This document shows positions 30,385 to 40,666 of a stretch of 40,666 nt of DNA, piece after piece (position 1 is the first letter of the stretch; every line of letters begins with the position of its first letter). The notes below the pieces were generated by a model, which saw only the letters and a list, made by a program, of their open reading frames with translations, was not told the DNA's origin and ran no database searches. The stretch comes from Serratia sp. M24T3. GTDB lineage: Bacteria; Pseudomonadota; Gammaproteobacteria; Enterobacterales; Enterobacteriaceae. The stretch lies in contig NZ_AJHJ01000042.1 in the NCBI RefSeq assembly GCF_000257645.1, forward strand, positions 1-40,666. The letters are read 5' to 3'. The position numbers and the translations under genes were made by a program.

Positions 30385-31419
30385 GTGGAAAATGCTTTGA
30401 ATAACGAAAAAAACGCTAACAAAAATCCATCGCGATCCCCAACCCTTGAGGACGTAGCCAAAGCTTCGGGGCTCTCGCCGATGACCGTAAGTCGGGCGTT
30501 GAACAACCCTAAAGTCGTTCGCCCAGCAACGATTGCCCGCGTGCTGGAAGCCGTCAATCTCACCGGCTATATCCCCAATATGTTGGCCGGAGGTTTGGCG
30601 ACCAAACGCACCAAACTGATTGCTGTGGTAGTGCCGCAAATCAATAACAACATGTTTGTTGACACCGTGCAGGCGATTGGCGATGAGCTGGCCTTGCGCG
30701 GCTATCACATGCTGCTGTGTATAGTCGGGTATGCCCCTGAATCAGAGACGGAAATTGTCGCAACCTTATTGTCGCGCCGCCCGGACGGCATTGTGCTGAC
30801 CGGCATCCATCACACTTCCGAACTCAAACGCATTATTTTGAATGCCAATATTCCGGTGGTGGAAATCTGGGATCTCACCCCGACACCGCTGGATATGCTG
30901 ATTGGATTTTCACATGAAAAAATCGGTCACGCGATTGGTGACTACTTCCTTAAGCAGGGCTTTAGCCGGTTTGGTTTTATTACTGCCAGCGACCGCCGCG
31001 CGCAGGTGCGTAATAAAGGTGCAGTTGAGGTCCTGAGCAGAAACTCTGATCACCTGATCCGCGAAATCACCGTGCCAGCCCCGGCGAATATGGCGGTAGG
31101 CCGCAGCGCTTTTCGCGAGTTGATTCAACAAGGCCAGCAGTTTGATGCCATTATCTGTACCTCAGATACGTTGGCGCAGGGCGTGATCATGGAAGCCGAA
31201 GCTCAGGGGCTAAGCGTGCCTGCGGATCTCAAGGTGATTGGTTTCGCCGACTTAAATTTTGCTGCCCACAATAGACCTGCTATCACCACCGTGAGTGTCG
31301 ATAAAGAAAAGATAGGCCAGCAGGCCGCCACCATGCTGGCCGATAAAATTGAAGGCTACGAAATATCCGAGAACGTGGTCGATACTGGTTTTACACTCAT
31401 CGTTCGTGAATCAGCATGA
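30385..31419 (+). CDS. LacI/GntR-type transcriptional regulator
   Basis: A 344-residue LacI-family repressor. The helix-turn-helix is at about 20-40 (TLEDVAKASGLSPMTVSRAL) with hinge helix NMLAGGLATKRT near 65-76. The periplasmic-binding-protein-like domain follows: AVVVPQINNNMFVDTVQAIG, RPDGIVLTGIHHT, VVEIWDLTPTPLDMLIGF near 155-172 and CTSDTLAQGVIMEA. VVEIWDL...DMLIGF resembles VVELMDS...DIAVGF of E. coli GntR, so a gluconate-type ligand is likely, and gluconate dehydrogenase genes lie just downstream. The start is GTG 30385 or TTG 30397: an in-frame ATG-TAA pair (30376-30381) closes the frame upstream and the first internal ATG falls inside the helix-turn-helix. No strong ribosome binding site is seen. 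Confidence 0.9.
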   Translation: MENALNNEKNANKNPSRSPTLEDVAKASGLSPMTVSRALNNPKVVRPATIARVLEAVNLTGYIPNMLAGGLATKRTKLIAVVVPQINNNMFVDTVQAIGDELALRGYHMLLCIVGYAPESETEIVATLLSRRPDGIVLTGIHHTSELKRIILNANIPVVEIWDLTPTPLDMLIGFSHEKIGHAIGDYFLKQGFSRFGFITASDRRAQVRNKGAVEVLSRNSDHLIREITVPAPANMAVGRSAFRELIQQGQQFDAIICTSDTLAQGVIMEAEAQGLSVPADLKVIGFADLNFAAHNRPAITTVSVDKEKIGQQAATMLADKIEGYEISENVVDTGFTLIVRESA

Positions 31420-31584
31420 GTCGTTAAGTTTTATCCGCCTGTTCCAAATCAGGAATAGGCGAAGTATTTACCCCCACCTTTAGTAGAATTCCTCCCCTGA
31501 ATTTAAAATCATCCTGTAGGCTTCCTTATTAATGGTCAATATCATTAGTTAACCAGAATACGCCCTCGGTTATTTACCTTTAAT

Positions 31585-31599
31585 TGAAAACCATTCTTA
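31585..31599 (+). promoter_or_regulatory. Candidate Fur box
   Basis: TGAAAACCATTCTTA keeps 10 to 11 of 14 bases of the 7-1-7 Fur pattern TGATAAT-N-ATTATCA, and the flanks are AT-rich. The operon downstream encodes three haems and a probable Fe-S cluster, so iron control is plausible. AT-rich DNA gives chance matches. Confidence 0.3.
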
Positions 31600-31619
31600 T
31601 TTGTTTATTTTGTTAGAAA

Positions 31620-31631
31620 TGTTAGCTAACA
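31620..31631. promoter_or_regulatory. Perfect 12-bp palindrome, candidate operator
   Basis: TGTTAGCTAACA is fully self-complementary and lies in the only long gap between the LacI/GntR-type regulator and its presumed target operon. Size and symmetry fit a LacI-family half-site pair, but the centre is GC rather than the usual CG, so assignment to this regulator is a guess. Confidence 0.35.
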
Positions 31632-31964
31632 AAACCAACATTTAATAACAGTGAATTTCATTGTTTAATTATATTAAAGGAAGATAAATCTAAATTAAAA
31701 ACTGTACCAAATGGAACATCATGATACCTAAATGCTTTATTTAACACTGAATTTATCAACAAGAAAAATTAAAATAAACTCATATAAAACAATAAAATAC
31801 AAATAAAAACAGCTTCAATTAAAGCAGATGAATTTAAGCACCCATAATTAGCATGGAATTTAATAATTTATTTTTAATGTAGCAGTGATATTATAAATTT
31901 GTACCCAAACAACAATAAAAACTAACCCCTTTCTAACATTTAAACATGTGAGAGTTGTAATGCT

Positions 31965-32690
31965 ATGCTTCTTCAAAAGAAAACTACTCGTCGTAAATTC
32001 TTACTAGGGTCAGTAATGGCTTTGCCTGTGAGTGCAGTCATTATGAAAGGATTCACTGCTGCACAAGCAGCAGAAATGGCAGCACCTGAATTAAGCGATT
32101 ACAAGCCAGTATTTTTTAGCGCCGATGAATGGCAATTTATTATGGCCGCTGCCGATCGTCTGATCCCGGCTGGCGGTAAAGGTAAAGCCCCGGGCGCACT
32201 GGAAACTAACGTGCCTGTTTTTATCGATCAGCAAATGCACGGCGAATTTGGTGAAGAGATCTATATGCAGGGACCTTTTAACGTCCACGCCCCTGCCACT
32301 ATGGGCTACCAATTACCCTATCGCCCGCAGCAAATCTATAAAATTGGCATCCGACTCGCCAATAGCTGGTGCCAGCAAAATCATCAAAAAGCCTTCCACG
32401 AATTGTCTGAAAAAGATAAAGACGACGCCCTGACTCAGTTGCAGAAAAACGGTATTAAATTCGCCGACATGGGCGAGGAGTCTCTGCTGGCTTCGCAATT
32501 CTTCAGCGAATTGCTCTCCGATACCAAACATGGCTATCTCGCAGACCCGATTTACGGCGGTAATAAAGGCATGAAAGCCTGGATAGCCATCGGATTCCCA
32601 GGGGCGCGAGCCAGCTACACGGAATGGGTCAAGCAGCACAATATCCCTTACCCATTGGGTCCTGTCAGTCTGGCTGGTGCACGCGCCTAA
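31965..32690 (+). CDS. Gluconate 2-dehydrogenase subunit 3 (small, Tat-exported subunit)
   Basis: This is the small subunit of the membrane-bound FAD gluconate (or related sugar acid) dehydrogenase. It escorts the flavoprotein, which lacks its own signal, through the Tat system. The 241-residue product has a twin-arginine signal near the start, TTRRKFLLGSVMALPVSAVI, with cleavage probably after AQAAE-region Ala. The mature part is a Gluconate_2-dh3 domain: FFSADEWQFIMAAADRLIPA (about 50-69), PVFIDQQMHGEFGEEIYMQG (about 83-102) and a C-terminal GYLADPIYGGNKGMKAW (about 186-202). GAGAG lies about 10 nt before the ATG. It is first in a three-gene operon with the GMC flavoprotein and the cytochrome c. 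Confidence 0.9.
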   Translation: MLLQKKTTRRKFLLGSVMALPVSAVIMKGFTAAQAAEMAAPELSDYKPVFFSADEWQFIMAAADRLIPAGGKGKAPGALETNVPVFIDQQMHGEFGEEIYMQGPFNVHAPATMGYQLPYRPQQIYKIGIRLANSWCQQNHQKAFHELSEKDKDDALTQLQKNGIKFADMGEESLLASQFFSELLSDTKHGYLADPIYGGNKGMKAWIAIGFPGARASYTEWVKQHNIPYPLGPVSLAGARA

Positions 32691-32743
32691 CAGACCTGAC
32701 TGTATTCAAACTTTCCGTTTCTTATGATTTGACAGGATTAATG

Positions 32744-34513
32744 ATGGCACAAGTAACTAAAGAAGAAGTCGACGTCGTTGTTGTCGGCCTGGGCTGGGCT
32801 GGCTCGTTGATGAGTATCGAGCTGGCGATGGCAGGACTGAAAGTCCGTGCCTTGGAGCGCGGGGGCGATCGCGGCTATGAAGAGTTCGCCTACCCAAAAC
32901 CAGCAGATGAATACGCTTACGCGGTCAGAAATAAAGTGATGGCGACTCCGGCAGAGGCCGCAGTTACCGTTCGCTATAATATGAGCGAAACCGCGCTGCC
33001 AACCCGAAAATGGGGCGCTTTTGCACCAGGTACCGGCGTTGGTGGATCGGGTCTGCACTGGACAGCGGTACTGATCCGCCCCACACCAACCGATTTGAAA
33101 CTCAAAACTTATGCCGATCAGGCCTACAAGCCGGGGATCTTGCAGGAAGAAATGCGGATCATGGACTTCCCGTTCACCTGGGACGAGATCGAGCCTTATT
33201 ACACTAAGTTCGAGCACATCTGCGGGCAGTCAGGAAAAACCGGCAACCTGCGCGGGAAAATCATGGAAGGTGGCGATCCGTTTGAAGGCCCACGTTCTGA
33301 ACCGTTTCCCCTTCCCGCGCTGGAAGATACCCTCAACAGCAGCATGTTTGCTGACGTGGCAAAGAAAATGGGTTATCACCCGTTTCCAAATCCGTCGGCC
33401 TGCGTTTCGCGCGCCTGGACCAATCCTTACGGCAACCAGATCGCTCCCTGCAACTATTGCGGCTATTGCAGTAAATATCCTTGCCTGAACTACTCTAAAG
33501 CCTCGCCACAAACTGCGGTGATGGACGCACTAAAGCGCATGGAAAACTTCTCTTACGAAGTTCACGCCAACGTACTGAAAGTGGTGCTGCACGACGATAA
33601 AAAGACGGCCAAAGGCGTTATCTATATGGACGCACAGGGCAACGAGTGCTTCCAGCCGGCAAAAATTGTGGTGCTGAGCAGCTTCCAATTCTGCAACGTG
33701 CGGCTGATGCTGCTGTCCGGGATCGGCAAGCCTTACAACCCGATCACCGAGGAAGGCGTGGTGGGTCGCAACTATGCATTCTTGAGCAACGGCGGTTCGA
33801 CGCTGTTCTTCAAAGACAAAAACTTCAATCCGTTTGCAACCGCTGGCGCGACCGGGCAAATGATCAACGATATTTCTCCGGGCAACTACGACGGTCCTGG
33901 CCTTGGCTTTATCGGCGGTGCCAAGATCCACAGTTCCCAGGCTACCGGCACACCTATCAGCACCGCGTTGCCAAAAGGCACGCCGAGCTGGGGAACCGGC
34001 TGGAAAGAAGGGATGGAAGATTGGTACGGCCATTCGATGAAGATAAGTATCACCACGACCTGCCAGTCCTATCGCGATATTTATCTCGACCTGGATCCGA
34101 ACTACAAAGATGAATACGGCATGCCGCTGCTGCGTATGACTTTCGACTGGAAGCAGAATGAACTCAAACTGCAGCAGTATCTGAAAGGCATCGTCGGCAA
34201 TATCACCAAAGAGTTAAATCCAGACAGCTACAGCGAAAGCTTCCTGCCGATGGATGCTCACTTTGATCTGACCAAATACGTGTCGACTCACAACGTTGGC
34301 GGTGCGGTGATGGGTGATAACCCGAAAACTTCGGCGCTGAATAAGTACCTGCAAAGTTGGGACGTACACAACGTCTTTGTGCCGGGCGGCAATGCTTTCC
34401 CGCAAAACTTCCAGGCCAACCCAACCGACACTATCGGAGCGATCACTCTGATGGCCGCACAGGCAATTAAAGATCACTATCTGAAAAATCCCGGCCCACT
34501 GGTACAGGTATAA
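32744..34513 (+). CDS. Gluconate 2-dehydrogenase flavoprotein subunit (GMC family)
   Basis: This is the catalytic subunit, which oxidises gluconate (to 2-ketogluconate) or a related sugar acid in the periplasm. The 589-residue GMC oxidoreductase opens with the FAD motif VVVVGLGWAGSLMSIELA (G15, G17, G20) and ALERGG at the end of beta-2. VGGSGLHWTAVLIRP follows near 99-113. The cysteines C236, C239, C242 and C247 (CNYCGYCSKYPC) match the Fe-S motif described for the FAD-dependent glucose/fructose dehydrogenase complexes. Catalytic H516 (STHNVGGAVMG) and N559 (NPTDTIGA) are in place. Two ATGs stand in tandem; the second has AGGA at 6 nt. There is no signal peptide, fitting co-export with the small subunit. 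Substrate rests on family and the GntR-like neighbour. Confidence 0.92.
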   Translation: MAQVTKEEVDVVVVGLGWAGSLMSIELAMAGLKVRALERGGDRGYEEFAYPKPADEYAYAVRNKVMATPAEAAVTVRYNMSETALPTRKWGAFAPGTGVGGSGLHWTAVLIRPTPTDLKLKTYADQAYKPGILQEEMRIMDFPFTWDEIEPYYTKFEHICGQSGKTGNLRGKIMEGGDPFEGPRSEPFPLPALEDTLNSSMFADVAKKMGYHPFPNPSACVSRAWTNPYGNQIAPCNYCGYCSKYPCLNYSKASPQTAVMDALKRMENFSYEVHANVLKVVLHDDKKTAKGVIYMDAQGNECFQPAKIVVLSSFQFCNVRLMLLSGIGKPYNPITEEGVVGRNYAFLSNGGSTLFFKDKNFNPFATAGATGQMINDISPGNYDGPGLGFIGGAKIHSSQATGTPISTALPKGTPSWGTGWKEGMEDWYGHSMKISITTTCQSYRDIYLDLDPNYKDEYGMPLLRMTFDWKQNELKLQQYLKGIVGNITKELNPDSYSESFLPMDAHFDLTKYVSTHNVGGAVMGDNPKTSALNKYLQSWDVHNVFVPGGNAFPQNFQANPTDTIGAITLMAAQAIKDHYLKNPGPLVQV

Positions 34514-34518
34514 GTGAC

Positions 34519-35781
34519 ATGAACATGATGAATTTAAAACGCTTTTTTATTGCTAACGTCGTGTTGATGGGCGCGGGCTTTATGGCACATGCGCAGGCCG
34601 ACGACGCTCAGTTGATTAAACAGGGTGAATACATTTCTCGCCTCGGAGACTGCGGCGCATGCCATACCGTCGCGGGCAAGCCGGCCTTTTCCGGCGGGCT
34701 GGCGATTAAGTCAGATTTAGGCACTATTTATTCGACCAATATCACGCCGGACAAAGACCACGGCATCGGAGGTTACAGCGAGCAGCAGTTCGCCGATGCG
34801 GTGCGCAAAGGCGTATTGCCCGACGGCACCCGCCTTTATCCTGCGATGCCTTATCCTGATTATGCCAAAATCAACGATGAGGATATGCATGCGCTCTACA
34901 CCTACTTTATGCAGGGCGTGAAACCGAGTGCGGAAGAACCCTCAAAAACCGATTTGAGCTTCCCGTTCAACCAACGTTGGGGGATGCGTTTCTGGAACTG
35001 GGCATTTACTTCCGAGAAACCATTCAAGCCGATTGAAGGTGCGTCTGCAGAAGTAAATCGCGGAGCCTATCTGGTTGAAGGCCTCGGTCACTGCGGCAGC
35101 TGCCACACGCCGCGCGGGCTGGGAATGAACGAAAAAGCCCTCGACAGCAGCGATGCCAAGTTCTTGGCAGGCGGCAGTCTCAACGGTTGGGAAGTGCCCT
35201 CTTTGCGCGGTGTTGCTCACTGGAATGAACAAGAAATCGTTGATTATCTTGGTAAAGGCCGCAATGACAAAGCAGCGGTTGGCGGGGAAATGACTTCAGT
35301 TGTCGAGAATAGCACCAGTTATATGACTGATGCAGACCTCAAAGCTATCGCCGCTTATGTGAAGTATTTAGGCGGTAATCCACCGGTTCCAGCAGCCAAT
35401 GTTCAGGCTGCCAGCACGACCGAGGCCAAGCTAACGACAGCCAAAAATCTTAGCGTAGGTGAACGTTTGTATCTCGACAACTGCGGTGCATGCCACTTTG
35501 TCACCGGTAAAGGTGCGCCGGGCGTGTTCCCACAGCTGGATCAGGCGACGATCGTCAACGCTCAGGATCCTACCGGCCTAATCCACACAATTCTGGCCGG
35601 GGCTCAGCAACCTTCTACCGCGCGGGCACCTTCAACGTTGGCAATGCCAGGCTTTGCGGCTCGGCTATCAGATGATGACGTCGCGCAGCTATCTACCTTT
35701 ATTCGCCAAGGCTGGAGTAACAAAGCGCCAGCAGTTACAGCGGATCAGGTCAGTAAGGTTAGAAAAACGCTGGAAAAATAA
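34519..35781 (+). CDS. Gluconate 2-dehydrogenase cytochrome c subunit (tri-haem)
   Basis: This is the membrane-anchored electron-transfer subunit passing electrons from the flavoprotein to ubiquinone. The 420-residue product has a Sec signal peptide (MNMMNLKRFFIANVVLMGAG, cleavage after AHAQA) and three covalent c-haem motifs: C45-GA-C48-H49, C192-GS-C195-H196 and C322-GA-C325-H326. Each haem domain has a later Met ligand candidate, for example YPAMPYPDY near 107-115 and TLAMPGFA near 373-380. It starts 5 nt after the flavoprotein stop, so the genes are coupled, and ends before a strong terminator. The same architecture occurs in alcohol, sorbitol and fructose dehydrogenase complexes, so the substrate comes from context. 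Confidence 0.92.
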   Translation: MNMMNLKRFFIANVVLMGAGFMAHAQADDAQLIKQGEYISRLGDCGACHTVAGKPAFSGGLAIKSDLGTIYSTNITPDKDHGIGGYSEQQFADAVRKGVLPDGTRLYPAMPYPDYAKINDEDMHALYTYFMQGVKPSAEEPSKTDLSFPFNQRWGMRFWNWAFTSEKPFKPIEGASAEVNRGAYLVEGLGHCGSCHTPRGLGMNEKALDSSDAKFLAGGSLNGWEVPSLRGVAHWNEQEIVDYLGKGRNDKAAVGGEMTSVVENSTSYMTDADLKAIAAYVKYLGGNPPVPAANVQAASTTEAKLTTAKNLSVGERLYLDNCGACHFVTGKGAPGVFPQLDQATIVNAQDPTGLIHTILAGAQQPSTARAPSTLAMPGFAARLSDDDVAQLSTFIRQGWSNKAPAVTADQVSKVRKTLEK

Positions 35782-35873
35782 GTCCCTAAGCGGATGGAAT
35801 GAGACTGGTTATAAACTTCAAGAACAGCTCTTGTAAAGTTCGCTGAATTTCTAGCCAGTTTAATTAGCCCCTC

Positions 35874-35902
35874 ACGGCCACCTTAACGGGGGCCGTTTTT
35901 TT
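35874..35902 (+). terminator. Intrinsic terminator of the gluconate dehydrogenase operon
   Basis: The stem ACGGCC / GGCCGT (35874-35879 and 35891-35896) with an 11-nt loop is followed by TTTTTTT (35896-35902). Confidence 0.85.
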
Positions 35903-35917
35903 ATGCAGCCTCCCCAG

Positions 35918-35933
35918 CGTGAGATGGCTCACA
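35918..35933 (+). promoter_or_regulatory. CRP-cAMP site upstream of the sugar permease gene
   Basis: CGTGA-N6-TCACA keeps 9 of 10 bases of the TGTGA-N6-TCACA consensus. Its centre (35925.5) is about 90 bp before the predicted start of transcription, close to the -93.5 position of CRP at E. coli araBAD. Confidence 0.75.
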
Positions 35934-35946
35934 AAGCTTTCATGCG

Positions 35947-35984
35947 CAGCAGATTTTTCTATGTTAGCAGCGTCTCTTTACCTC
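35947..35984 (+). promoter_or_regulatory. Candidate AraC-type I1-I2 operator (direct half-sites, 21 bp apart)
   Basis: The first half-site, CAGCAGATTTTTCTATG (35947-35963), matches E. coli araI1 TAGCATTTTTATCCATA at 11 of 17 positions, including AGCA and the T-tract. The second, CAGCGTCTCTTTACCTC (35968-35984), shares the AGCG and TACCT elements of araI2. They are direct repeats starting exactly 21 bp apart, as in araBAD. The second half-site overlaps the predicted -35 by 4 bp, again as in araBAD. Confidence 0.6.
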
Positions 35985-36009
35985 TTTATCAGGATTATTA
36001 GCGTTAAAT
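35981..36009 (+). promoter_or_regulatory. Predicted promoter of the permease-GH42-regulator operon
   Basis: TTAAAT (36004-36009) is the best -10 upstream of the permease. A 17-bp spacer places the -35 at ACCTCT (35981-35986), which is far from consensus, as expected for an activator-dependent promoter. The start would be near 36016, giving a 30-nt leader. Confidence 0.45.
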
Positions 36010-36045
36010 TAAGCCAATAACCCATCGGGGGAAAAGAGGTGGATC

Positions 36046-37278
36046 ATGCCAAAACTTAATAATAATTATTTCATGTGTTGCCTGTTCTTTTTATTCTTCT
36101 TTATTGGCTGGGGAAGTTGTTATCCCTATTTGTCATTATGGCTAACGGATACTATCGGCATAGATTATGCTGATGTAGGGTTAGTTTATTCTTTTACTGC
36201 TATTGTTTCTGTCTGCGTGCAGCCTATTTTTGGTTTTATCGCCGACAAGTTGATATTCAGAAAAAATCTAATGTGGATGCTAGCAATAATAGTCACACTT
36301 TTTGCTCCTTACTGGATCTGGATCTTTGCACCACTGCTAAAATATAACGTTATTCTCGGTGCATTTGCCGGTGGGGTATATATTGGCTTTGCCTTTGGTG
36401 CAGGCTGTGGTGTGTGCGAAGCTTACATTGATAAAGTCAGCCGCATGACCGGTTTTGAGTTTGGTAAAGCTCGAATGTTTGGCGGTATTGGCGCTGCAAT
36501 CGCCACATTTCTGGCTGGAATACTCTACGGCATCGATCAGAATTACATTTTCTGGATGGCAAGCCTGGCAGGTGTAGTATTACTGTTTATTGTCTGGAAG
36601 ACCAACCCAAAGATTTCAATTGCAGATGCCGCGCAAGGCACCAAACGGGCTCCGGTTACTTTACGCGACGTCCGTAATTTACTGAAAATGCGAAAATTCT
36701 GGTTCTTCGCACTCTACATGATTGGCGTTGGAGCCGTCTATGAGACCTACGACCAGCAATTCGCTATTTACTATAGCCACTTTTTTTCAACTAAAGCCCG
36801 TGGCGCGGAAGTATTCGGTTATCTGTATACGGCGCAAATATTCCTCGACGCCATCGTCATGTTCTTCTCGCCGTGGTTCGTAAACAAAATCGGCCCTAAA
36901 AATGCGCTTATTTATTGTGGCTTGATTATGAGTTTACGAATCATTGGCTCTGCTTACGCAGTCGGACCTGTCTCTATCAGCGCGGTTAAAATGCTGCATG
37001 GTTTTGAAAGCTCTGTATTTCTGGTTGCCGGATTAAAATATATTGCCAAAAACTTTAATCCCTGGTTATCAGCAACAGTGTATTTAATTGGCTTTCAATT
37101 TTCGAAACGATTTAGCGAAATATTTCTGTCCAGCGCTATAGGCCATATGTATAAAAACTTTGGTTTTGCCGACAGCTATCTGGTGCTTGGTTTCATTGCA
37201 TTCTCATTCACACTAATTTCCTATTTTACTCTGGATAAAACACGCGTTTTCATTCCTCAAAAGACAATCACTGACTAA
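36046..37278 (+). CDS. LacY-family oligosaccharide:H+ symporter
   Basis: A 410-residue major facilitator of the oligosaccharide:H+ symporter family (LacY, RafB, CscB, MelY), with 12 membrane segments. Aligned by eye with LacY, it keeps the Glu126-Arg144 sugar pair as E125 (VCEAYIDKVSR) and R143 (FGKARMFG), plus Arg302, His322 and Glu325 as R298 (SLRIIGSA), H318 and E321 (LHGFE). The position of LacY Glu269 is Ile265 (YTAQIFLDA), a change I recall in sucrose-type CscB, so lactose itself is doubtful. GAGG lies before the ATG. The GH42 gene follows after 14 nt and an AraC-like regulator after that, so the three probably form one operon. Substrate is inferred to be a galactoside or arabinose-containing oligosaccharide. 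Confidence 0.92.
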   Translation: MPKLNNNYFMCCLFFLFFFIGWGSCYPYLSLWLTDTIGIDYADVGLVYSFTAIVSVCVQPIFGFIADKLIFRKNLMWMLAIIVTLFAPYWIWIFAPLLKYNVILGAFAGGVYIGFAFGAGCGVCEAYIDKVSRMTGFEFGKARMFGGIGAAIATFLAGILYGIDQNYIFWMASLAGVVLLFIVWKTNPKISIADAAQGTKRAPVTLRDVRNLLKMRKFWFFALYMIGVGAVYETYDQQFAIYYSHFFSTKARGAEVFGYLYTAQIFLDAIVMFFSPWFVNKIGPKNALIYCGLIMSLRIIGSAYAVGPVSISAVKMLHGFESSVFLVAGLKYIAKNFNPWLSATVYLIGFQFSKRFSEIFLSSAIGHMYKNFGFADSYLVLGFIAFSFTLISYFTLDKTRVFIPQKTITD

Positions 37279-37292
37279 TATCAGGAGGCAGT

Positions 37293-39314
37293 ATGTCGAA
37301 GATTTACTATGGTGTTGCTTATTATGACGAATATATGCCAGAGGACAGGCTGGCAGCAGATATTAGCATGATGAAAGAAGCTGGCATTAACATCGTGCGT
37401 ATTGCCGAATCAACCTGGAGCACCTTGGAACCGCAGGAAGGGGAATACTGTTTTTATCATATTGATCGGGTACTTAATGCCATGCATGAGGCTGGTATTG
37501 CAGTCATTATCGGCACGCCAACCTATGCCATTCCTTCATGGCTGGCCCGTAAACACCCAGAAGTGATGGTCACCACGCTTAAAGGCCAGGAAAAATATGG
37601 CCGTCGACAAATCATGGATATCGTCAGTCCGGTATTTCTTCGCTATGCGGAAAATATCATCCGCGTACTGCTGAAACATGTTCATTCTCACCCAGCAATT
37701 GTCGGCTATCAGCTAGATAATGAAACCAAGCATTACGATAATGTCGGTCCGGTAATGCAGCAAAAATTTATCGCCAATCTGCGACAGCGTTATCCCGATT
37801 TGAACCAGCTGAATAAAGACTTCGGGCTTGATTACTGGAGTAATCGTATAGATAACTGGGAGGATTTTCCTCCTTTAGAATCAACGATTAATGCTAGCCT
37901 TGGCTGTGCATTTTCAGCCTTTCAGCGTAAAACCGTGACCGAGTATCTGGCATGGCAGAGTCAGATCGTTAGAGAATATTCTCGCCCTGAACAGTTTATT
38001 ACCCACAATTTCGATTTTGAATGGCGCGGTTTTTCTTACGGCGTTCAGCCTCGCGTCGATCATTTTGAGGCAGCCAAATCATTAACGATTGCCGGGGTGG
38101 ATATATATCACCCTTCACAGGAACAGCTTACTGGGCGTGAGATTTCATTTGGTGGCGATATCGCCCGAGCATTAAAAAAGGGAGCCGGATATTTAGTACT
38201 TGAAACCGAGGCTCAGGGATTTGCCCAATGGACTCCCTTCCCTGGCCAGCTTCGCCTGCAAGCCTTTAGTCATATTGCTTCAGGCGCGAAAATGGTTTCA
38301 TACTGGCACTGGCACTCAATCCACAATTCTTTTGAAACCTATTGGAAAGGATTACTCAGCCACGACTTCGCACCCAATCCTACGTATCTTGAAGCCAAAA
38401 CCATTGGGGCAGACCTCGCCAGATTAGCCGATCATTTTGATGGCATGAAAATGAATAACGACGTGGCCATTCTGGTTAGCAATCAGGCGATGGATGCCGT
38501 GAACTGGTTCAAGCCCGGTGATGCACAAACTAATGTTTACAACGATGTATTTCGCCGATTTTACGATGCGCTCTATGACAGCAATATCTCGGTAGATATC
38601 ATCAATGATGTCGATTCAGCCTGTTCACGTTATCGGGTAATTGTTATTCCTGCCCTTTACGCCGCCGATGATGCACTTTTAAAACGTATTAATCATTATG
38701 TGGAATCTGGCGGCAATGTGCTTATCGGTTTCAAAAGCGGTTTCAGCGATCAGAATGTTAAAGTCAGAACAGGAAAACAGCCCGGTATACTGAATGAAAG
38801 TTGCCGAGTGAGCTACAGCCAATTTGTTCTACCTCAGAATGTAGGTTTTAAAAGCTGTGCAGCCGATTTTGAGATAGATGCTGAAGAACGGGCTGAATTA
38901 TGGATGGAGCTATTAACCGCCGATGATTCTGATCAAGTAAAGGTACTTGCAACCTATCAGCATCCTAATTGGGGGAAATATGCCGCAATAACGGAATCAC
39001 GATACGGAAAAGGTTCAGCAATTTATATAGGCTGCCTGAGCAGTAAAACCGTGATTTCACAGCTGATAATGCGCTTTGGCAAACAGACCACGCTATCATC
39101 TTGCCACTCGGCTCACAGTTTTCCAATCATTGTTAAAAAGGCCGTAGCCAAGGATGGTCAAACCCTGACATTCTATTTTAACTATTCTGAAGATACGCAG
39201 CAGATCCAGACGCCCGAGAATGCAGTTTGCCTAATAGGTGACCATGTTGCGAATGCCACCAACTGTCAGCAAATTGAACCTTGGGGATTACGTATTTACC
39301 TGTCAGATATTTAG
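37293..39314 (+). CDS. GH42 family beta-galactosidase (or alpha-L-arabinopyranosidase)
   Basis: A 673-residue cytoplasmic glycoside hydrolase of family 42, without a signal peptide. The catalytic TIM barrel starts YYGVAYYDEYMP and has NIVRIAESTWSTLEPQEGEY near 33-52, the acid/base E144 in IVGYQLDNETKHYDN and the nucleophile E304 in YLVLETEAQGFAQWTP. SGAKMVSYWHWHSI follows, then the trimerisation domain (from about 390) and a short C-terminal domain ending GLRIYLSDI. AGGAGG stands before the ATG. GH42 members split beta-galactosides from plant polysaccharides, and some release alpha-L-arabinopyranose. With a LacY-type importer upstream and an arabinose-type regulator downstream, the substrate is probably an imported oligosaccharide from arabinogalactan or similar material. 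Confidence 0.93.
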   Translation: MSKIYYGVAYYDEYMPEDRLAADISMMKEAGINIVRIAESTWSTLEPQEGEYCFYHIDRVLNAMHEAGIAVIIGTPTYAIPSWLARKHPEVMVTTLKGQEKYGRRQIMDIVSPVFLRYAENIIRVLLKHVHSHPAIVGYQLDNETKHYDNVGPVMQQKFIANLRQRYPDLNQLNKDFGLDYWSNRIDNWEDFPPLESTINASLGCAFSAFQRKTVTEYLAWQSQIVREYSRPEQFITHNFDFEWRGFSYGVQPRVDHFEAAKSLTIAGVDIYHPSQEQLTGREISFGGDIARALKKGAGYLVLETEAQGFAQWTPFPGQLRLQAFSHIASGAKMVSYWHWHSIHNSFETYWKGLLSHDFAPNPTYLEAKTIGADLARLADHFDGMKMNNDVAILVSNQAMDAVNWFKPGDAQTNVYNDVFRRFYDALYDSNISVDIINDVDSACSRYRVIVIPALYAADDALLKRINHYVESGGNVLIGFKSGFSDQNVKVRTGKQPGILNESCRVSYSQFVLPQNVGFKSCAADFEIDAEERAELWMELLTADDSDQVKVLATYQHPNWGKYAAITESRYGKGSAIYIGCLSSKTVISQLIMRFGKQTTLSSCHSAHSFPIIVKKAVAKDGQTLTFYFNYSEDTQQIQTPENAVCLIGDHVANATNCQQIEPWGLRIYLSDI

Positions 39315-39353
39315 TACCCAACAATTCTCTTATCGGCAACCGAGCAGGACACA

Positions 39354-40229
39354 ATGGAATTAAACCCGCAGGATATGGTGAGCTATTCACCTCTAATGAA
39401 AAGCTTTACTTTCAATGCCTATCTGGTTGCCGGTTATACCCCCATTTCGCGAGCCAGCCAGCTCGATTTTTATATTAATCGCCCTGGAGGAATGAAAGGT
39501 TATATCCTGCATTTGACGCTAAGAGGAGAAGGAAGGATCAAAGCAGGCAATCGTTACATCACCAGCCGTATAAACGACCTATTCCTTTTCCCACCTGATG
39601 TAGCCCACTACTACGGACGTGCAGAAACGAGTGAACACTGGGATCACTTATGGATCTATTTTCATCCACGTCCCTATTGGCTAGATTGGCTACGCTGGGA
39701 CAGGTTAGAAGATCATATTGGTATAACCCATCTTCATGCCCCTGCATTGTCCGAGATTATTCAGAGCTGTTTTTGGGAAGTTATCCAGCAGAATGCCAGC
39801 AATGAATTACTGAGTGAAGCACTGGCAATGAACGCACTCGAGCGGCTAATTATATCGTGCTTTAAATTACAACCTTTATCCAACCACCAAAGTCTCGATC
39901 CACGAATTAGTACCCTATGCCATTATATCACCGAGCATATAGTCGAGGATCTGACCATTGAACATCTGGCAAAACAGGTTTTTCTCTCTCCCTCACGATT
40001 GGCTCATTTGTTTAAAGATCAAATGCAGGAAACTATCTTTGCATGGCGTGAGAAACAGCGTGTTAACCGCGCCAGAAACCTGCTCCAGTCCACGCATCTG
40101 ACCATCGGCCAAGTTTCTCAGGCGGTAGGTTATGAGGATGCACTTTATTTTTCACGCATTTTCAGGCATCACGTCGGAGTCAGTCCGCGTCAATATAAAA
40201 AACGTTATGAACATATGATCTCTATTTAG
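39354..40229 (+). CDS. AraC-like regulator with a conserved arabinose-binding pocket
   Basis: A 291-residue regulator aligned end to end with E. coli AraC (292). The N-terminal cupin domain (about 10-170) reads NAYLVAGYTPI, INRPGGMKGYILHLTLRGEG, LFLFPPDVAHYYGR and HWDHLWIYFHPRPYW. The residues known to contact arabinose in AraC (Pro8, Thr24, Arg38, Tyr82, His93, Trp95) appear as P13, T29, R43, Y87, H98 and W100, all with a constant offset of 5. The DNA-binding domain has two helix-turn-helices (LTIEHLAKQVFLSPSRLAHL near 200-219 and LTIGQVSQAVGYEDALYFSR near 246-265). AGGA lies 7 nt before the ATG. It is third in the permease-GH42 operon and is expected to act at 35947-35984. Whether the genome also has a separate araC cannot be seen. 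Confidence 0.92.
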   Translation: MELNPQDMVSYSPLMKSFTFNAYLVAGYTPISRASQLDFYINRPGGMKGYILHLTLRGEGRIKAGNRYITSRINDLFLFPPDVAHYYGRAETSEHWDHLWIYFHPRPYWLDWLRWDRLEDHIGITHLHAPALSEIIQSCFWEVIQQNASNELLSEALAMNALERLIISCFKLQPLSNHQSLDPRISTLCHYITEHIVEDLTIEHLAKQVFLSPSRLAHLFKDQMQETIFAWREKQRVNRARNLLQSTHLTIGQVSQAVGYEDALYFSRIFRHHVGVSPRQYKKRYEHMISI

Positions 40230-40236
40230 TAGCATT

Positions 40237-40255
40237 AATACTTTGGTATTTTTTT
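40237..40255 (+). terminator. Weak AT-rich terminator after the AraC-like gene
   Basis: The short stem AATAC / GTATT (40237-40241 and 40246-40250) with loop TTTG leads into TTTTTTT (40249-40255), 8 nt past the stop codon. The stem is weak, but the T-run and position fit. Confidence 0.5.
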
Positions 40256-40628
40256 ATAGGCTTTTTATATGGAAACGTTTTTCTTGGCATTAAAAATCAT
40301 AAGAAATTATCATAATAATATCACGCAAACAGTTTATCGATTAGGTTAATTAGAATGATCTAATATTAAAAATAATGAAACGTTAATTTTAATAAGTTAT
40401 TTTCGCAGCCTTAATATTAACTTGCTGGTACACTGCTCGCGGGTGCTCTGGATCTTTTTGTCCCGAGCATGATGTCCTGTTTTATACGTTTAGTATTTGC
40501 TGTAACCGGTATGCGGAAGACAAAAAGAGAAAAGCCCCGAATTGAAATTAATCAAAACGAGGCCTACTCGATGCGTCAGAAACATCAGGTTAGCCTCTTA
40601 CCCGCCGAAAGGCAAGGAGTCGGAGTCT
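40256..40628. other. Intergenic region and probable long leader of the last gene
   Basis: The left half is very AT-rich and carries two GAAACGTT motifs 105 bp apart (AAACGTTT at 40273-40280, GAAACGTT at 40377-40384). The right half is more GC-rich and structured: a hairpin TGCTC-GGA / TCC-GAGCA (40444-40469), then GCC-GAAA-GGC near 40605. TACACT (40429-40434) could be a -10. A 62-codon frame (40469-40657) crosses the next gene's start in another frame and looks spurious. Confidence 0.4.
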
Positions 40629-40631
40629 ATG

Positions 40632-40666
40632 ATGCTGCAAATCCCCAAACTACTTAATCGGATGAT
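40632..40666 (+). CDS. Start of an unidentified gene, cut by the window edge
   Basis: Two tandem ATGs (40629 and 40632) follow GGAG (40622-40625); the second has the better spacing of 6 nt. The visible protein is only MLQIPKLLNRM, too short to assign. Evidence for a gene is the ribosome binding site and an apparently structured leader upstream. Confidence 0.45.
   Translation, partial: MLQIPKLLNRM

Follow-up and report, generated by a model that had tools for sequence, protein, structure and literature searches.

Introduction

The locus described here, a LacY-type permease gene, a glycoside hydrolase family 42 (GH42) gene and a paralogue of the arabinose regulator AraC on contig NZ_AJHJ01000042.1 of Serratia sp. 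M24T3 (genus Rouxiella), has a described sister in the rafB-bgaA locus of Ewingella americana L47. In the accessible portion of a 2026 paper that locus is presented as lactose-hydrolysing (PMC12842569). The activity of BgaA on o-nitrophenyl galactoside (o-NPG) is given there as ∼0.0005 U/mg, from washed inclusion bodies, and a tryptophan of the enzyme is noted and read as possibly lowering lactose affinity (PMC12842569). The Rahnella GH42 enzyme BglY is reported, in the excerpted text, with no syntenic block (PMC8074230), the excerpts of PMC5457731 and PMC4730625 concern GH2, GH3 and other families, and GH42 is absent from the available part of PMC5928203; a Geobacillus arabinopyranosidase is mentioned in the excerpt of PMC4428132, and the reference cited for it assigns GH27. 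Among the matches listed, literature on bacterial vicianose use consists of plant-extract or review papers only, judged by title and the start of the abstract. None of the matches listed pairs, by title, an arabinopyranosidase with AraC or an operon in this system, and none, in the portions available, gives an account of the gene group as an arabinopyranoside operon. The arabinopyranoside assignment made here appears new, the sister Ewingella locus being already known, in the accessible text, as a lactose system (PMC12842569).

The window, the whole stretch of 40,666 nucleotides that was analysed, carries the three genes on the same strand in the order permease, GH42, regulator, with gaps of 14 bases (permease to GH42) and 39 bases (GH42 to regulator), so that the linkage proposed in a first-pass annotation of this DNA is borne out. 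Judged from sequence, the group is probably an arabinopyranoside operon induced by L-arabinose, and it is likely that it serves neither galactosides nor arabinogalactan. In the proposed pathway, (i) the LacY-type symporter would import a small arabinopyranosyl sugar, for which vicianose, α-L-Arap-(1-6)-D-Glc, is the best guess, other candidates being small plant glycosides and oligosaccharides capped with arabinopyranose, (ii) the GH42 enzyme, in which no signal peptide is seen by eye, would free L-arabinose in the cytoplasm, (iii) L-arabinose would occupy the unchanged first shell of the paralogue's pocket, (iv) the paralogue would bind two direct half-sites 21 bp apart, beside a CRP-like site ahead of the permease gene, and (v) the bound paralogue would activate the operon, its own gene included. 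The same arabinose should also switch on the separate araC/araBA genes.

The GH42 enzyme and the permease

The GH42 gene (37293-39314, + strand) encodes a protein of 673 residues that scores 262 bits against PF02449, with E144 and E304 as the catalytic glutamates by alignment, both present in all 37 operon GH42s. The closest solved GH42 structure is that of an α-L-arabinopyranosidase (PDB 5XB7), at 664 bits against 194 for the next structure. The tryptophan pair W-X12-W (W338 and W351; codons 38304-38345, + strand) is likewise found in 37/37 of the operon enzymes examined, and a sample of 394 genomes of the order yielded 26 other GH42s, all with F-X12-H (26/26). Galactosidases carry Phe and His where the W-X12-W enzymes have tryptophans, the second of which blocks the C6 of galactose. 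The window enzyme is predicted to be an α-L-arabinopyranosidase, not a galactosidase. If the arabinopyranoside reading is right, the label β-galactosidase borne by this gene in the five plasmid-collection records viewed is a misannotation. Both GH42 types occur together in Klebsiella pneumoniae CP125156, and a deposited Klebsiella GH42, AEA30144.1 (named in PMC12654650), may be of either type.

The permease (36046-37278, + strand; 410 residues) belongs to the LacY family of sugar/H+ symporters, with 447 bits against PF01306 and 485.5 bits against the NCBIfam galactoside permease model PRK09528 (cut-off 429). The LacY residues E126, R144, K319, R302, H322 and E325, those of proton coupling, are kept in the operon permeases. 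Positions W151, E269, N272, N119 and N245, the first three presumably galactoside-binding, are A, I, D, G and I in the window permease and in 14/14 relatives. At all five places a second LacY of this genome matches that of E. coli; it is part of a LacI/LacZ/LacY-like cluster on a different contig (C23), so lactose is probably handled there. A search for a GH53 galactanase gave no match in the window genome, and arabinogalactan use was rejected on this ground.

These data bear on the rival idea, supposed both by the Ewingella authors, in the accessible text, and by the first-pass annotation, of an operon for β-galactosides, either lactose or galacto-oligosaccharides, with galactose or lactose as the ligand of its AraC-type regulator. 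It would fit the β-galactosidase label of the five plasmid records, the galactoside permease cut-off passed by the transporter, the o-NPG activity reported in the available part of the Ewingella paper (PMC12842569) and the existence of a lactose-sensing AraC-family protein, BgaR. We consider it unlikely, given the W-X12-W pair in every one of the 37 operon enzymes, the loss of galactoside-binding residues from the permease, the separate lactose-type cluster and an identity of just 13-15% between BgaR and the window regulator. The earlier proposal on inducer and substrate thus survives in half: arabinose stands as the likeliest inducer by virtue of the intact pocket described below, and a galactose or arabinogalacto-oligosaccharide substrate does not, because the second tryptophan excludes the C6 of galactose, the permease is without galactoside-binding residues, GH53 is missing and the lactose-type cluster lies elsewhere.

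The regulator and its sugar pocket

The regulator gene (39354-40229, + strand) is a real open reading frame of 291 codons whose product is collinear with E. coli AraC throughout, at 38.9% identity overall, 40.6% in the sugar domain and 39.1% in the DNA domain. It passes the NCBIfam AraC model PRK10572.1 with 391.4 bits against a cut-off of 208. It is an AraC paralogue with an intact L-arabinose pocket and the predicted activator of the operon. The pocket residues named earlier, P13, T29, R43, Y87, H98 and W100, do align with, and are identical to, P8, T24, R38, Y82, H93 and W95 of AraC. The residues L9, F15, I36 and M42, further pocket residues of AraC, are also kept. Among 82 aligned regulators, P8, L9, F15, T24, R38, M42, Y82, H93 and W95 are present in 82/82 and I36 in 80/82, which exceeds what chance would give. 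The conservation of M42, H93 and W95 is partly selected for, because the loci behind 79 of the 82 rows were picked out with two peptide patterns, WDHLWIY and GMKGY.., which cover these positions; P8, F15, T24, R38 and Y82 fall outside both patterns. L-arabinose is likely to be the inducer of the window regulator.

The residues of the second shell separate paralogues from true AraC proteins almost cleanly: D37 is N, H or Q, L10 is M, I, V or F, and Y13 is F in the paralogues, where Y92 is replaced by D in 30/32 and R/Q94 by L in 31/32. These near-fixed changes at five positions favour a variant of the same arabinopyranoside operon in which the regulator answers to the intact arabinoside or to another pentose or hexose, not to free L-arabinose, the second shell having adapted to that ligand. 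The variant is improbable on balance, since the first-shell residues are kept and since an AraC homologue beside a W-X12-W GH42 in a distant genome (G346) retains the E. coli-type D37, Y92 and Q94.

A second araC in the genome

The window genome has a separate araC (G000:C14:20796-21617), 56% identical to E. coli AraC and ∼4.3 kb from araB and araA; araD is on another contig (C5). A search for such a gene near araBA was a set check of the paralogy claim, and since a different araC sits near araB and araA, the window regulator is a paralogue. It does not adjoin araBAD, it belongs to an operon of its own, and it falls outside the clade of araBAD-linked AraC. In a tree of 32 paralogues (31 loci plus the window) and 50 true AraC proteins (48 loci, E. 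coli and the genome's own), the two sets form separate clades with 100/100 support, as the paralogy claim would have it, with some long branches.

The locus counts rest on one scan of named genomes, from which the best 80 of 325 AraC-like loci were taken. In 32 of the 80 (L057-L086, L088, L093) a GH42 gene is found upstream of the araC-like gene, immediately adjacent or separated from it by a single gene; 21 of these loci have a LacY-type transporter and 11 a GPH symporter. Of the remaining 48 loci, 47 have araB and araA, the exception (L094) showing neither. The linked group is unbroken in 31 of the 32 loci; the broken one, L093 of Pectobacterium sp. PL152, was omitted from the tree.

The operon promoter

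Upstream of the permease gene lie a predicted CRP-like site, CGTGA-N6-TCACA (35918-35933, + strand), matched to the CRP consensus, and a predicted tandem site of araI1-I2 type with AGC repeats 21 bp apart (35947-35984, + strand). The distance of 21 bp is the araI1-I2 spacing in the E. coli sequence. In 33 operons the stretch of 300 bases ahead of the first gene was scanned, and in this count, run after the repeat had been noticed by eye, AGC..AGC occurs at 21 bp in 31/33 promoters and at the next commonest spacing (range 6 to 59) in 13/33. After thinning of alike promoters the figures are 17/19 and at most 6/19 for other spacings. A matrix built from 42 araB sites alone finds its best place at the 21-bp repeat in 29/33 operons, and none of the operon promoters looked at has a single AraC half-site at 8/10 consensus positions. 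NGTGA-N6-TCA is present upstream in 26/33 operons. The TCACA of the window's CRP-like site is 14 bases upstream of the first AGC, the same distance as in E. coli PBAD; in a K. pneumoniae locus it is 13.

The second box reads TCTATG in Rouxiella, TTACTG in Klebsiella and TTTCAT in Ewingella. Because it differs from the araB box, TNCATA, a change in the DNA choice of the paralogue is suggested. The same sites raise the question of whether the true AraC drives the operon, the paralogue being a modulator or a relic, as their likeness to araB sites in the AGC of the A-box and the 21-bp spacing might imply. This is very improbable: the second box is unlike that of araB, a GH42 link to the paralogue is seen in 32/32 loci, 31 of them unbroken, and the operon is found on plasmids together with its own regulator.

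A hairpin followed by a T run (35885-35904, + strand) lies between the preceding gene and the operon. As a terminator it is a weak call by itself, because shuffled sequences average 4.8 such patterns against the 10 found in 35600-40666. Further upstream, 30385-35781 holds a GntR-like regulator of the LacI family and an apparent three-gene FAD (flavin adenine dinucleotide) dehydrogenase set of small subunit, FAD subunit and cytochrome c.

Distribution and variants of the operon

Orthologues of the operon are present in three of the four Rouxiella congeners searched (G001, G003 and G004; not G002), with regulators 87-89% identical. The 32 GH42-linked loci span at least 18 Enterobacterales genera, Klebsiella included, and annotated plasmid-collection records with the same gene group come from Rahnella, Pantoea and Erwinia. 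One K. pneumoniae record has the group between tamA and ytfJ. For E. coli, the collection of complete genomes gave no near match to the operon and no distant match to the permease gene. The W-X12-W enzyme type is uncommon: it occurs in 4/394 genomes of the order and in 2/398 genomes drawn from the phylum (E<=1e-100; the window genome and G266). In the distant genome G346 such an enzyme adjoins a GPH symporter and, on the other strand, the divergent AraC homologue, which falls outside the paralogue clade in a quick tree; its placement is unsure because of its long branch. This arrangement is a hint that GH42 and AraC became paired there independently.

In a second form of the operon (L053-L055, L072-L082), GH42 comes first and a GPH symporter replaces the LacY-type permease; Enterobacter sp. 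JUb54 has both forms (L079 and L088). Klebsiella sp. BIGb0407 has a second araC-like gene right after the paralogue (L067:8881-9741), 74% identical to E. coli AraC and with I in place of M42, and genes that look by eye like xylA and xylB upstream of the operon. In Pectobacterium sp. PL152 the permease gene is immediately preceded by a lone araD (L093:3698-4423; 79% identity to E. coli AraD), and permease, GH42 and regulator are each split into several frames. In one genome of 49% completeness (G032; L035 and L036) the operon and the araC-araBAD region are both fragmented, as if decaying. Plasmids of Hymenobacter, Persicobacter and Sphingomonas (L203, L204 and L205) carry W-X12-W GH42s at 48-56% identity, with other carbohydrate-active genes nearby in the first two. 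The flanks of 10-14 kb taken from these plasmids gave no AraC match (E<=1e-8), and the pairing with AraC is therefore not universal for this enzyme type.

Weighing the arabinopyranoside reading

Several points weigh against an operon for arabinopyranosides with L-arabinose as inducer. The literature search returned no assay of any group member on an arabinopyranoside or of the regulator with any sugar, and the Ewingella homologue BgaA, active on o-NPG, is named lactose-hydrolysing in the available text (PMC12842569). Some other GH42 enzymes are bifunctional, according to the accessible part of PMC10673005, and the loop beside the second tryptophan (residues 344-350) is modelled at low confidence, with a predicted local distance difference test score (pLDDT) <50. 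In the promoters, the CRP-like pattern is absent from 7/33 operons (L079-L085) and the araB matrix scores are weak singly: 12/33 promoters score above every one of 40 shuffles, and for the window promoter 1/40 shuffles scores higher. The pocket alone cannot separate arabinose from a galactose-like sugar, because D-fucose also occupies the AraC pocket in the available record (2AAC). The ligand or switch of the paralogue may have shifted relative to AraC, since pocket-adjacent residues differ from it in nearly all paralogues.

A wider proposal is put forward tentatively: that at least 18 Enterobacterales genera hold an unrecognised operon of vicianose type, with a GH42 misannotated as β-galactosidase and, as regulator, an AraC copy of old origin that now serves its own operon and whose changed second shell would sense the arabinoside or tune the arabinose response apart from that of araBAD. 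If the arabinopyranoside reading holds, the Klebsiella, Rahnella, Pantoea, Erwinia and other genes now labelled β-galactosidase and AraC would encode a plant-glycoside pathway, and predictions of function for bacteria of the gut and of plants would change. The two AraC paralogues, alike in the first shell and different in the second shell and in the promoter box, would be a natural test bed for the evolution of ligand and DNA choice, and the operon would also offer a permease of LacY fold whose sugar specificity is altered.

Comparison with known systems

In contrast with the AraC/araBAD system of E. coli, the window paralogue lies in a separate clade (100/100), away from araBAD and last in an operon of its own, with a changed second shell, and the operon has a changed second promoter box. 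The permeases of three congeners are ∼42% identical to E. coli LacY and keep its proton-coupling residues, but W151, E269, N272, N119 and N245 are replaced in 15/15 permeases examined. BgaR (PDB 6NWH) is, like the window regulator, of the AraC family, but by the title of its record it senses lactose, and the identity between the two is 13-15%. A Bacillus megaterium β-galactosidase likewise has an AraC-type regulator, a likeness taken from the title of the report alone. The Ewingella americana L47 rafB-bgaA locus with its AraC-type regulator has, as far as its accessible description goes, the same kinds of genes as the window; its BgaA has 668 residues and a Trp351, as does the GH42 of the E. 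americana locus found here (L083) (PMC12842569). The enzyme BlArap42B (PDB 5XB7), 45% identical to the window GH42 and sharing its W-X12-W active-site signature, comes from Bifidobacterium animalis subsp. lactis, a host of another phylum than the window organism.
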